From Gordonia sp. ABSL11-1 (lineage in GTDB: Bacteria > Actinomycetota > Actinomycetes > Mycobacteriales > Mycobacteriaceae), in assembly GCF_030315685.1 (NCBI RefSeq), contig NZ_JASXSI010000005.1, forward strand, positions 62,001 through 126,000: DNA of 64,000 nt, in the 5' to 3' direction. Both the position numbers and the translations under genes were made by a program. The notes under the pieces were generated by a model, which was not told the origin of the DNA, did not search any database, and was given only the letters and a program-made list of their open reading frames with translations. How positions within the stretch are numbered: position 1 is the first letter of the stretch; every line of letters begins with the position of its first letter. Positions 9,276-60,012 of this stretch are shown one piece after another.

Positions 9276-9318
9276 GGCCCCACCGCCCGCGTCGATCCTC
9301 GCGCCGCCTCGCAGCCCT

Positions 9319-9380
9319 CGCCGACCGTGCCCTGGAATTCGCCGACCGTGCCCTGGAATTCGCCGACCGTGTCCAGAATT
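9319..9380. repeat. 21-bp tandem repeat (two exact copies, one degenerate)
   Basis: CGCCGACCGTGCCCTGGAAT followed by T is repeated exactly at 9319-9339 and 9340-9360, and a 20-bp degenerate copy follows at 9361-9380. It lies in the gap between phoR and the DUF899 gene and is not in a gene. Each unit carries an EcoRI-like GAATTC at its junction. Confidence 0.9.
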
Positions 9381-11019: not shown

Positions 11020-12213
11020 TCAATCGCGACCGATGAACAGGTACTCGCTCACATCGCGACGGGTGGCGGCGACATGTGTGCCGAAGCTGTACTTGTGATC
11101 GATCGCGATCACCTCCACCGACGGCTTCACCTTCCCGAGGAGATCGACGATCCGGTCGGCGCCGGGCAACGCGTTCGACGAATAGGACAGCACGATCGCA
11201 CCGGAATCCTGGAAGTGCTCGAACGTCCGGGCCAACGCATCCTCGATGCTGTGCTTGTAGGCGAACGGCGTGTAGCGCTTGGTCAGCTTCTTGGTCTTCG
11301 TGTGCTCCATGATCGTCATGCCACGCCAGTAGGCCGACAGCCCCTCGAGGAAGTGATAACGCTTGATGTAGTCGTTGTCGTCGGTCGGGGGCGCATACGG
11401 CGGATCGAGATACACCAGGTCCGGTGGGCCGTCGAGGCCGGACAGGTCGAGATCGAAGATATCGCCGCTCACACTCCTGTTGGACGCCCCGTTGCTGAAC
11501 ACCGTCGCGTTGTACTCGGCGGCCGACCGCAGGCGGAAATGATCGCGCAGCGACATCCGCAGGTCACGCCTGCCGTCGGCGTACCGAGTCGAATCGGTGA
11601 ACGTGAACACGCCGCGCGGCTGCTTGCGCGCCGCCGACAACACCAGCGCCGAGATCGCCAGATCGCGTCGATACCCGCGCAGCCGGTCGATGTGCGACCA
11701 CGCCGAGTCCAGAAACGCACGGTCCTCCGCCGTGAAGTACAGGCCGTCGAACGTCGAGGAGATGAAGTCGCGGTCATCGGCCGGGGGACCGCAGATCTCC
11801 TCGATCAGATCGTCGTCGAGCCGCACACTCGAATTGGCGACCGTCGCGCGCGTGATGATGTGCGGGAACGTCAGGAAATCATTGCTCACCACCTGGAAGC
11901 CCTGAGCCTTCAACAGGTAGGACACCACGCCCGATCCGGAGAACGCGTCCACCGCAGTGCTGCCCCCGATCTCGGCGAAGGTCCGCTCGAGGTGGGGCAG
12001 TAGCCGATACTTCGACCCCATGTACCGCAGACGCGGAAAGCTCTGCGCCTTCGCGATGACATCCGCCGATCCGAGGACACGACCCAGGGCCTTCGGCCCG
12101 CTCGCTGCGTTCCCGGCGCCGGTGCCCTTCGGCCCGCTCGCTGCGCTCCCGGCGCCGGCGCGATTCGGCCCGCTCGCTGCGCTCCCGGCGCCGGTGAACT
12201 CTGATCGACTCAC
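11020..12213 (-). CDS. D12-class adenine-N6 DNA methyltransferase with N-terminal repeat extension
   Basis: A 397-residue adenine methyltransferase. RYMGSKYRLLPHLE, then VDAFSGSGVVSYLLK (AdoMet-binding motif I), NDFLTFPHII, and catalytic LVYLDPPYAPP (DPPY, motif IV) followed by YHFLEGLSAYW identify the D12 class. It presumably methylates the site cut by the adjacent endonuclease. The first 38 residues are unusual: three near-identical 12-residue units with the core GAGSAASGP. The GTG at 12213 is the only possible start, because the frame is closed by TGA a few codons upstream and no ATG, GTG or TTG lies between the repeats and the essential RYMGSKY motif. The repeats must therefore be translated if the gene is intact. 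No clear Shine-Dalgarno is seen. Confidence 0.88.
   Translation of the reverse strand: MSRSEFTGAGSAASGPNRAGAGSAASGPKGTGAGNAASGPKALGRVLGSADVIAKAQSFPRLRYMGSKYRLLPHLERTFAEIGGSTAVDAFSGSGVVSYLLKAQGFQVVSNDFLTFPHIITRATVANSSVRLDDDLIEEICGPPADDRDFISSTFDGLYFTAEDRAFLDSAWSHIDRLRGYRRDLAISALVLSAARKQPRGVFTFTDSTRYADGRRDLRMSLRDHFRLRSAAEYNATVFSNGASNRSVSGDIFDLDLSGLDGPPDLVYLDPPYAPPTDDNDYIKRYHFLEGLSAYWRGMTIMEHTKTKKLTKRYTPFAYKHSIEDALARTFEHFQDSGAIVLSYSSNALPGADRIVDLLGKVKPSVEVIAIDHKYSFGTHVAATRRDVSEYLFIGRD
12095..12194. repeat. In-frame 36-bp repeat array in the methyltransferase gene (3 copies)
   Basis: A 28-bp core beginning ggcccgctcgctgcg and ending ggcgccgg recurs at 12095, 12131 and 12167, exactly 36 bp apart, with 8-bp variable spacers (TGCCCTTC, CGCGATTC). 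On the coding strand each unit encodes G-A-G-(S/N)-A-A-S-G-P plus three variable residues. Confidence 0.97.
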
Positions 12214-12820: not shown

Positions 12821-15067
12821 TCAGACCGATCGGTGGATCAGCAACGGCATCACCGCCGACGCCCCCGCCCGCCGCAACTCGGCCGCGGCCAGCGTGATCG
12901 GCCAGCCCGACGCCGTCTCGTCGACGACGAGCAGCACGTTCTGGCCCACGACCTCCGGCATCTCGCCGAGATGATCGCGCCAATACACCGCCTCGGTGGC
13001 GCCCGTCGCATCCCGACCCGGCCTCTCTCCCGACCGCACCGGCACACTCACCCGGGGCCGTTTACCGACCTCGCACAGATGATCGGCGACCTTGTCCGCG
13101 AGCACCGCCCCGGTCAGCCGTAACGACCCGATCGAATCCGGCCGGATGCCCGCATCCCGCACCCACGACGACAACGTGGTCACCGCCGCGTCACCGAGAT
13201 CGGTGAGTGCCTGCTCGTCGCCGCGCCGCGCATCCGCGAGCAACTCCACCCACTCCGGTGAATCGGCATGTGCCAGCACCCGGCCCGGCTCCGCCGCGAA
13301 CTCGCCCGCAATGCGACCACGCGTACCGAACTCACCGCCCGGCCACATCTTGCGCGGCTCCAGGATCAGCGCCGACCGCCGGAGCGCACCGGTGATCAGT
13401 CGCACCGTGTCGTCGGGCACGTCCGACGACAACGGCTCGGTCAGCCGCCCACGACACACCGAACACCGACCACACGGCTCGGCAGCCGGATCGTCGAGCG
13501 ACGACGTGAGCAACTGCATCAGGCACTGATGCCCATGGATGTAGTCGCGCATGATGTCGGCCTCGCGACGTCGCACCTCGATCACTCCGTCGTAATGCTG
13601 CTCGTCGTAAGTCCACCCCACGCCGGTCGACGTCCAGCCGTCGGACTCGCGATCCGTAGCACCGTCGACCGCCAGCTGCTTCAGCATCAACTCGACCTTG
13701 CCCCTGCGGAATCCGGTGGACGACTCCAACTGCGGCACCGACATCGGACCGTCCGCCGCATCGAGCGTGTCGAGCAGCACACGCATCCGATCGGGATCGG
13801 GGATCGTGGCCGTCGCGAAATGATCCCAGATGGCGTCGTCGGCGCGCGACGCCAAGAGCATCACCACCGCCTCGTCCAGCGCTCGACCCGCACGACCGAC
13901 CTGCTGATAGTAGGAGACCGGCGACGGCGGCGACCCCACATGCACGACGAACCCGAGATCCGGCTTGTCATAACCCATCCCGAGCGCCGACGTCGCGATC
14001 AGCGCCTTGACCTCGTTGCGCAACAAGGCATCCTCGAGCTGATGCCGACGATCACCGTCGAGTTGGCCCGTGTACGCCGCGACCCGGATCTCGGACCCGT
14101 GCACCGCAGTGATCGCATCAACCAGACGATGCGCATCGGCGACCGTCAGCACATAGACGATGCCCGAGCCCGGCAGTGACGGAAGGTACTGCGCCACCCA
14201 CCCGTACCGCTGGATCGGCGACAAACCATCGATCACATTGAGATGCAATGATTTCCGCGCCAACGAACCGCGGAGCACGAGCGTCTGACCCGGCCCGCTC
14301 GCTGCGCTCCCGGCGCCCGTCTGATCGGGCCCGCTCGCTGAGCTCCCGGCGCTCGGTTGATCGGGCCCGCTCGCTGAGCTCCCGGCGCCCAGCTGCGCCG
14401 CGACATCCTCGGTCACCCGCGCGTTCGCGGTCGCCGTCGTCGCCAGCACCGGGGTCTGCGGATTCAGGCGCTGCAGCACGTCCGACACACGACGATAATC
14501 CGGCCGGAAATCATGCCCCCAATCCGAGATCGCATGCGCCTCGTCGATCACCAACAACCCGAGCCGACCCGCCAGCGCATCCAGAACCCGCCGACCGAAA
14601 CCAGGATTCGCCAACCGCTCCGGCGACACCAGCAGCACATCGAGATCGCCGCCGCGCAACTGCGCCTCGATCATCGACCACTCGTCGACATTCGACGAAT
14701 TCAACGTCGCCGCACGCAGCCCCGCCCGCTCCGCCGCACTCACCTGATCCCGCATCAACGACAACAGAGGAGACACGATCAAAGTCGGCCCGCTCGCTGC
14801 GCTCCCGGCGCCGGGCAGAGTCGGCCCGCTCGCTGCGCTCCCGGCGCCGGCAGCCCGGATGATCGCCGTCGCGGTCCAGTACACCGCCGACTTCCCCCAC
14901 CCCGTGGCCTGCACGACCAGAACACGTGCCGATGGCCGCAGCAGTGCCGCGACGGCGGTGAGCTGGTCGTCGCGCAGGCGTGACCCCGGCCCGGCGAGAC
15001 TCTCGATCACCCGGTCGGCGGCGGACTGCTGATCGGCGGTCAGGGTTGCTGCGGCTGGGGAGGACAT
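12821..15067 (-). CDS. RecQ-like DNA helicase with phosphoribosyltransferase-like C terminus and repeat insertions
   Basis: A 748-residue superfamily 2 helicase. Motif I is QATGWGKS (53-60), Ia TLIVSPLLSLMRDQ, II VIDEAH (173-178), III ATTATAN, then IATSALGMGYDKPD and YYQQVGRAGRA. A cysteine cluster (CLMQ...CGRCSVCRG) suggests the RecQ zinc region. The last 40 residues (VLLVVDETASGWPITLAAA) resemble the PRPP loop of phosphoribosyltransferases of the ComF type, a fusion seen in actinobacterial RecQ relatives. Two blocks of the GAGSAASGP repeat interrupt the helicase core: two units at about residues 74-94, between motifs I and Ia, and three at about 227-259, after motif III. Both sit where loops are expected. 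It probably unwinds DNA during recombination or repair. It lies beside the restriction-modification pair. Confidence 0.88.
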   Translation of the reverse strand: MSSPAAATLTADQQSAADRVIESLAGPGSRLRDDQLTAVAALLRPSARVLVVQATGWGKSAVYWTATAIIRAAGAGSAASGPTLPGAGSAASGPTLIVSPLLSLMRDQVSAAERAGLRAATLNSSNVDEWSMIEAQLRGGDLDVLLVSPERLANPGFGRRVLDALAGRLGLLVIDEAHAISDWGHDFRPDYRRVSDVLQRLNPQTPVLATTATANARVTEDVAAQLGAGSSASGPDQPSAGSSASGPDQTGAGSAASGPGQTLVLRGSLARKSLHLNVIDGLSPIQRYGWVAQYLPSLPGSGIVYVLTVADAHRLVDAITAVHGSEIRVAAYTGQLDGDRRHQLEDALLRNEVKALIATSALGMGYDKPDLGFVVHVGSPPSPVSYYQQVGRAGRALDEAVVMLLASRADDAIWDHFATATIPDPDRMRVLLDTLDAADGPMSVPQLESSTGFRRGKVELMLKQLAVDGATDRESDGWTSTGVGWTYDEQHYDGVIEVRRREADIMRDYIHGHQCLMQLLTSSLDDPAAEPCGRCSVCRGRLTEPLSSDVPDDTVRLITGALRRSALILEPRKMWPGGEFGTRGRIAGEFAAEPGRVLAHADSPEWVELLADARRGDEQALTDLGDAAVTTLSSWVRDAGIRPDSIGSLRLTGAVLADKVADHLCEVGKRPRVSVPVRSGERPGRDATGATEAVYWRDHLGEMPEVVGQNVLLVVDETASGWPITLAAAELRRAGASAVMPLLIHRSV
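14292..14389. repeat. In-frame 36-bp repeat array in the helicase gene, distal block (3 copies)
   Basis: Copies of the core ggcccgctcgctg(c/a)gctcc start at 14292, 14328 and 14364, again exactly 36 bp apart. They encode GAG(S)(A/S)ASGP units of 12 residues inserted after helicase motif III. Two copies carry GCTGAG instead of GCTGCG, giving SSASGP. Confidence 0.96.
14787..14850. repeat. In-frame 36-bp repeat array in the helicase gene, proximal block (2 copies)
   Basis: Two copies of the 28-bp core start at 14787 and 14823, 36 bp apart, with an 8-bp spacer. They encode two 12-residue GAGSAASGP units between helicase motifs I and Ia. Confidence 0.96.
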
Positions 15068-59672: not shown

Positions 59673-59859
59673 CGAGACGACGCGCCCTAGCTAGCGCCGA
59701 CATGTCCTGTGCGAAAACGACATCGGTGACGCTCGACGTCGTGCCACGGGCGTCGTCGTCTTGCTGGCTCTGCCAGCACACGCCGGTCGCAAGGCCGACG
59801 GTGAGCAGCAGCACCGCGATGCCCGTCACGCCGACGATCCGAACCCGTCCTGCACTCAT
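59632..59859 (-). CDS. Possible small membrane or exported peptide, 75 aa
   Basis: A minus-strand frame encodes MSAGRVRIVGVTGIAVLLLT, then VGLATGVCWQSQQDDD and a charged tail. One N-terminal hydrophobic helix is clear, so the peptide would be membrane-bound or exported. Its last codons overlap the end of the enoyl-CoA hydratase gene, so the real stop may have been lost or a frameshift may be present. The start codon lies in the last of three 17-bp repeats, each of which has its own ATG and a preceding GGACGGG. Weak evidence, but hydrophobicity and codon use support coding to about residue 55. Confidence 0.4.
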   Translation of the reverse strand: MSAGRVRIVGVTGIAVLLLTVGLATGVCWQSQQDDDARGTTSSVTDVVFAQDMSALARARRLVRRCRAGPSTRGR

Positions 59860-59894
59860 CCCCGTCCTGCACTCATCCCCGTCCTGCACTCATC
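59844..59894. repeat. 17-bp tandem repeat, three exact copies
   Basis: CCCGTCCTGCACTCATC occurs three times without gaps (59844-59860, 59861-59877, 59878-59894). Read on the minus strand each unit contains GGACGGG and ATGAGTGCA, so every copy has a ribosome-site-like stretch and an ATG, each in a different frame. Confidence 0.97.
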
Positions 59895-60012
59895 CCATGT
59901 GCGAGTCCTGGACTGCGGGAGGGGTGTACACCGTCGGGCTCGACTCCAGTGCGTAGAAGCCACCGTCGGCACAGGTCGTCCAGAGTTGATTGCCGCGCCA
60001 CTCCGGCGGAGA

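Follow-up and report, generated by a model that had tools for sequence, protein, structure and literature searches.

Rickettsia offers the best-known in-frame mobile elements of bacterial genes, and the SDR5 mobile repeats of cyanobacteria reportedly insert precisely within the HIP1 octamer. In the passages of the source that describe them, the palindromic elements of Rickettsia measure about 150 bp, lie in frame in unrelated genes and encode a conserved peptide (PMC10969869). REPs of the GTAG and CGTC superfamilies are portrayed in parts of a review as short dispersed hairpins which are mainly reported as head-to-head dimers; some are intragenic, notably in repair genes, and encode extra amino acids (PMC3733652). 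CGTC-type REPs carry a CGTC tag, a stem of 8–9 bp and a loop of 4–5 bases, rarely form clusters and, according to the same parts of the review, seem to lack a dedicated transposase (PMC3733652). The main text of this review contains no mention of actinobacteria, Gordonia, Mycobacterium or Streptomyces (PMC3733652).

The 36-bp repeat described here comes from a Gordonia window of 64,000 nucleotides (the window being the whole stretch of DNA that was analyzed). It works like intragenic REPs or the Rickettsia palindromic elements, yet fails defining features of both. Like REPs, it is a dispersed palindromic repeat within 20–40 bp, with 53 copies in its genome, a 28-base hairpin and covarying arms. 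In contrast to GTAG REPs, it has neither the GTAG tag at the hairpin foot nor a Y1 transposase in the 59 genomes searched, and in contrast to CGTC REPs, it has no CGTC tail and forms arrays of at least two units at 81 of 171 array loci, its stem and loop being read from sequence. Whereas REPs are mostly extragenic, 185 of 240 arrays of this element have a heuristically assigned coding host; its units run head to tail, mostly at 36 bp, rather than head to head (PMC3733652), and it has a GC-GNA-GC tip and outer pairs which vary by site. It shares with the Rickettsia palindromic elements the palindromes in frame in unrelated genes and the conserved peptide but differs in genus, in its 36-bp length and in its tandem steps (PMC10969869). 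With SDR5, as far as parts of that account describe it, the element has in common a very small repeat module (PMC4390886). No earlier description of the element was found in the openly licensed literature searched for this genus or peptide. We consider it likely that the repeats represent a dispersed REP-like hairpin element of the Gordonia–Tsukamurella–Williamsia lineage, an explanation which includes the entry, turnover and loop survival proposed below.

Repeat arrays in the helicase and methylase genes

The features of the locus are as follows.

12821–15067, minus strand: RecQ-like helicase ORF of 748 aa with two element arrays (profile and structure-sequence comparison)
14787–14848, minus strand: site A, two 26-mers (14787–14812 and 14823–14848) reading GAGSAASGPTLPGAGSAASGP, located between helicase motif I (GWGKS) and motif Ia
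14292–14389, minus strand: site B, three units (14292–14317, 14328–14353 and 14364–14389) reading GAGSSASGPDQPSAGSSASGPDQTGAGSAASGP, past helicase motif III (TATA)
11020–12213, minus strand: D12-class DNA adenine methylase ORF carrying the third array (PF02086, 53.7 bits, cut-off 22)
12095–12192, minus strand: third array, three units (12095–12120, 12131–12156 and 12167–12192), near the N-terminus of the D12 adenine methylase ORF

The helicase ORF matches the Pfam families DEAD and Helicase_C, both over cut-off, and three NCBIfam RecQ models with E values of 7e-51 to 2e-64, under the models' own cut-offs and in two stretches each. Eight matches to GGCCCGCTCGCTGCGCTCCCGGCGCC with up to two mismatches are found in the window as opposed to none in each of 100 shuffles, which excludes chance. 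They start at 14292, 14328 and 14364, at 14787 and 14823, and at 12095, 12131 and 12167, with a spacing of 36. All five helicase units are in frame at this period, those of site A lying between GWGKS and LIVSPL. The preliminary description had placed the 36-bp repeats twice inside the helicase and in frame, with three units after motif III and two between motifs I and Ia; these coordinates are correct, and the same element is indeed present in a neighboring DNA-metabolism gene as it had claimed, the D12 methylase holding three of the eight window copies. The window also contains unrelated near-perfect tandem repeats at 934–1014 (14 bp), 9318–9371 (21 bp) and 59844–59896 (17 bp).

A RecQ orthologue is present in 58 of the 59 genus genomes, and occupancy was scored on 30 fetched loci (29 for site B, where L048 from genome G015 was left out; its RecQ frame is broken after ATTATA). 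Site A is filled in 2 of the 30 loci, with two units in the window and one in L034, and 28 carry no unit. Site B is filled in 4 of the 29 loci, with 3, 4, 1 and 1 units, while 25 carry none. A third RecQ site upstream of motif I is filled in 6/30 loci, all of them from other species. Alignment with related RecQ proteins, as proposed beforehand, thus reveals both empty sites and copy-number variation, and not the same fixed insertion in all related helicases. Similarly, the methylase array comprises two units in the close relative G041 as opposed to three in the window. The second “unit” of site B in L035 is devoid of its middle bases (GGCGCCGGGGCC), being either loop-deleted or never filled.

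The window helicase and its orthologue in Gordonia sp. OPL2 (L115) share 96% identity, with internal indels only in the two arrays (one unit at site A, and at site B one unit together with a decayed piece of 10 residues). Aligned with a solved RecQ, an orthologue free of repeats matches in a single stretch with gaps at both insertion sites, and the corresponding alignment of the window helicase splits into two stretches. Repeat-free orthologues vary in length at site B, where some may hold decayed units, and the repeat-free RecQ of L041 carries an unrelated insertion at site A. From these alignments, both insertion sites fit presumed loops, which the helicase units would lengthen while the ORF stays open.

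Anatomy of the unit and its hairpin

On the usual coding strand, the unit reads nnnC-G-CCG-GGA-GC-GNA-GC-GAG-CGG-Gn'n'n', followed by the tail and 4 bases. The 36-bp unit consists of a core of 20 bases (CCGGGAGCGNAGCGAGCGGG in this orientation), three outer pairs, a 4-base consensus tail (most commonly AATG, GATC, GATG and AATC on the G-strand) and about 4 site-specific bases. The three outer pairs differ by site and are mostly complementary; the hairpin spans 28 bases. In 304 contexts, the pairs −6/21, −5/20 and −4/19 are complementary in fractions of 0.76, 0.92 and 0.92 (expected 0.46, 0.76 and 0.76), and the complementarity of the next pair beyond −6/21 is not above expectation. Among the 85 contexts without GG/CC at the inner two pairs, 44 show full complementarity in one of five alternative sets. 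Covariation was scored in 40 sequences hand-picked for variety, where 33 cells changed on both sides as opposed to 5.8 in shuffles; none of 500 shuffles reached this score, and it ranged from 0 to 10 in slid controls. In the first units of 182 arrays, outer pairing amounts to 96, 95 and 87%, falling to 12 and then 11% over the two positions that follow. Furthermore, orthologous copies in RecQ (site B) and in an F420-associated hydrolase differ between species in the outermost pair, both partners of which have changed together.

The loop base N is C in 46, G in 71, A in 66 and T in 6 of 189 units from three genomes, and the neighboring bases are 92–96% conserved in this set; elsewhere conservation looks inflated, since most loci were fetched by the exact core. 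The rarity of T at the loop base may be a coding effect. Beside the GNA loop, the core presumably contains tandem sheared G-A pairs. Parts of a study of synthetic DNA describe GNA loops closed by G-C pairs as extraordinarily stable mini-hairpins (PMC4686876). The core holds the same GC-GNA-GC as the d(GCGNAGC) mini-hairpins of that study, with all four N present, but within a natural repeat whose fold is deduced from its sequence (PMC4686876). When single-stranded, the G-strand would fold into a stable DNA hairpin with a GC-GNA-GC mini-hairpin. Extra stability over shuffles was not seen with the DNA parameters of ViennaRNA (z of 0.3 to 1.3 for five sequences and −0.4 for a sixth), which may give no credit to GNA loops or tandem G-A pairs.

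Distribution of the element

The source genome (5.70 Mb, 121 contigs) contains 53 copies of the 26-mer with up to three mismatches, divided 28 to 25 between the strands, and the same search with a reversed-pattern control found none. The proposal of a dispersed, copy-number-variable coding repeat is supported by these copies and by the variation of the RecQ arrays between orthologues. When the middle base is left free and two mismatches at most are allowed, the element occurs in 55 of the 59 genus genomes, at 0 to 110 copies each. Named records with the exact core belong mostly to Gordonia, followed by Tsukamurella and Williamsia, among the matches listed (80 of at least 113 stretches), and four further taxa are represented by one locus each among these matches. 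The exact 20-base core was found in 12 of 397 genomes of the order (6 of its own genus and 2 of another family) and a 23-base core in 5 of 394 genomes of the class, all five of its own family; a general high-GC motif was dismissed on these counts.

A phage origin was likewise rejected, since viral contigs gave no exact match and a 77-base query matched none of 50,697 phage records, as was carriage on plasmids, for which 72,556 plasmid records gave four partial matches. One match in a plasmid record, in Tsukamurella tyrosinosolvens (NZ_LR134451.1, 147956–151297; L325), concerns a different ATP-dependent DNA helicase gene.

Two loci of distant genera, L105 in Kitasatospora arboriphila (7008) and L149 in Williamsia muralis (7615), have flanks which are 96–97% identical, the former with 4 units at period 39 and the latter with 2 units at period 38. 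This sequence comparison suggests a recent horizontal transfer with a change of the array afterwards. A copy without an inferred coding host, with arms TCGC/GCGA (L246 at G000:C46:242262 and L271 in G041), lies in a stretch that is 98–99% identical between species, a higher conservation than in the flanks of the further copies compared among the three genomes. A structural RNA around the conserved intergenic copy was considered and rejected, as five loci scanned gave no Rfam match.

Host genes, reading frame and selection

A survey of 240 arrays, which excluded RecQ-driven loci and assigned coding hosts by GC3 heuristics, yielded an inferred coding host for 185 arrays in 135 clusters and none for the other 55. 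The heuristic placed at least one array, L003, in the wrong frame; by eye, we take its host to be nuoK. One of the six frames, encoding the peptide GAGSxASGP, accounts for 127 of the 185 coding arrays and the remaining five for 58 together; the naive binomial P for this preference is ~1e-55, but the arrays are related by descent and not independent. In-frame insertion in unrelated genes with a shared peptide bears out the likeness to Rickettsia palindromic elements noted in the preliminary description.

Hosts named by NCBIfam models include EgtB, NuoN, an FdhF-like oxidoreductase, HemA, GlfT1, NusB, CysN and a heavy-metal P-type ATPase, as well as ValS, PolA and TopA (ValS and TopA under cut-offs); transporters are also found among the hosts. 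This naming scanned 20 ORFs, several of them partial; five of the 20 stayed unmatched at E 1e-20. The arrays of HemA and NusB are located in the C-terminal tail. The special tie to two adjacent DNA-metabolism genes that had been claimed does not hold, since hosts ranging from PolA and TopA to ValS, NuoN, HemA, NusB, EgtB, CysN and transporters, in 135 clusters, show that the element is not special to such genes.

Across the 189 units from three genomes, 39, 46 and 67 substitutions fall on codon positions 1, 2 and 3 over 7, 6 and 8 sites, corresponding to 5.6, 7.7 and 8.4 per site, with little synonymous excess in this pool of units from any context. The variable base N occupies the second codon position and is nonsynonymous. 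Taken together, these two observations argue that constraint acts on DNA or RNA and not on the peptide. Among 41 arrays flanked on both sides by coding on the same strand, 39 have only spacings divisible by 3, as opposed to 38 of 49 others; this looser test was used in place of a first count (77/77 coding and 83/112 other) which is partly built into the one-frame coding rule. Insertions would survive mostly where GAGSxASGP, as a soluble linker, joins a surface loop.

Insertion steps and array turnover

Compared with the close relative G041, the net insertion is exactly 36n bp (36, 72 or 108) at 8 of 11 sites, the exceptions being L245, L251 and L253. In genome G018, 4 of 10 located sites show the same empty length and the remaining six contain units or indels of another kind. 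A decayed half-unit is already present in the short form of L028. Where arrays comprise two or more units, these are arranged head to tail, and noncoding arrays have whole-array periods of 35, 37, 38 or 39. In 88 singles, a short direct match appears at shift 36 only, at offsets −7 to −4 adjoining the element. At least 3 of the 4 end bases match in 19 singles (7.0 expected) and all four in 5 (0.8 expected), leaving 83 without a perfect 4-bp repeat; in the five perfect singles the match extends into the arm of the element. Over the eight 36n sites, the number of matching bases in the 4-base ends is 0, 1, 2, 2, 3, 4, 4 and 4. Judged from these sequences, the short end matches would reflect either a weak target duplication or microhomology.

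Neighboring units within arrays share N in 118 of 131 pairs (expected fraction 0.30), and within-array divergence is 1.9% in the core and 9.6% in the spacer (73 comparisons). Between orthologous arrays of three genomes, the number of units varies, as often does the shared loop base, with arm pairs mostly constant per site. Arm differences within arrays are one-sided in 89 of 97 cases and leave both units paired in only four, and the last units pair poorly (82, 83 and 58%). Copying of the spacer from arrays of the same genome was rejected, as identity within and between genomes is about equal at offsets 29–32.

Possible mechanisms of spread

New units of the REP-like hairpin element would enter through a replication- or repair-linked event with short matching ends, either by use of an enzyme or by template switching that copies a unit. 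Slippage or recombination would then expand and contract the arrays. Replication- or repair-linked copying of the hairpin unit and an enzyme appear about equally plausible.

The enzymatic branch, taken as a definite mechanism, would have a dedicated transposase or recombinase other than Y1 move a 32-bp element and leave a 4-bp target duplication, for a total of 36 bp. The confinement of the match in singles to offsets −7 to −4 at shift 36 is in line with this proposal, as are the excess of perfect end matches (5/88 against 0.8 expected) and the restriction to one lineage, which fits an inherited machine; however, 83/88 singles have no perfect 4-bp repeat, of the eight sites that are empty in G041 only four, including three arrays, agree in at least 3 of 4 bases, and in the five perfect singles the match enters the arm in the manner of a truncated second unit. 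The outer arms also vary in sequence, unlike usual transposon ends, and in this specific form the proposal is possible at best. Another reading is a transposase-independent element, in which a mini-hairpin would spread by template switching and draw its outer stem from the host flank, each event adding 36 bp (12 codons) and lengthening loops of essential proteins in frame; we regard this as unlikely. Old ancestral insertions followed only by tandem slippage and loss, with no recent movement, could account for orthologous arrays common to two or three species with differing copy numbers and for arm pairs mostly unchanged at shared sites, but the empty length at eight sites in G041 and at 4 of 10 located sites in G018, together with three separate RecQ sites across species, makes this rather improbable.

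Mobilization by RAYT, the Y1 HUH transposase of REPs, would suit the size, the hairpin, the four-base tail beside the stem and the intragenic copies, all of which are REP-like in the parts of the review that treat these features (PMC3733652). Conversely, a search for the Y1 transposase family that moves REPs (PF01797) was negative in all 59 genus genomes, its positive control matched in 5 of 14 known genomes, and the element carries neither a GTAG nor a CGTC tag. The known REP mover is therefore very unlikely. Selection for GAGSxASGP as a protein linker, with DNA similarity as a by-product, has in its favor the 127/185 inferred coding arrays that read this peptide, but it is hardly credible given the other frames in 58/185, the 55/240 arrays without an inferred coding host, a variable base which alters the amino acid while synonymous bases stay conserved, and outer pairs that covary.

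The dispersed hairpin element provides a compact actinomycete example of in-frame mobile DNA: a genome can hold as many as about a hundred copies, the usual step measures 36 bp, a REP-type transposase was not detected in the genomes searched, and relatives show filled and empty sites in the same housekeeping genes. It makes testable both the spread of REP-like hairpins without RAYT and the question of how often mobile DNA gives housekeeping proteins new loops.
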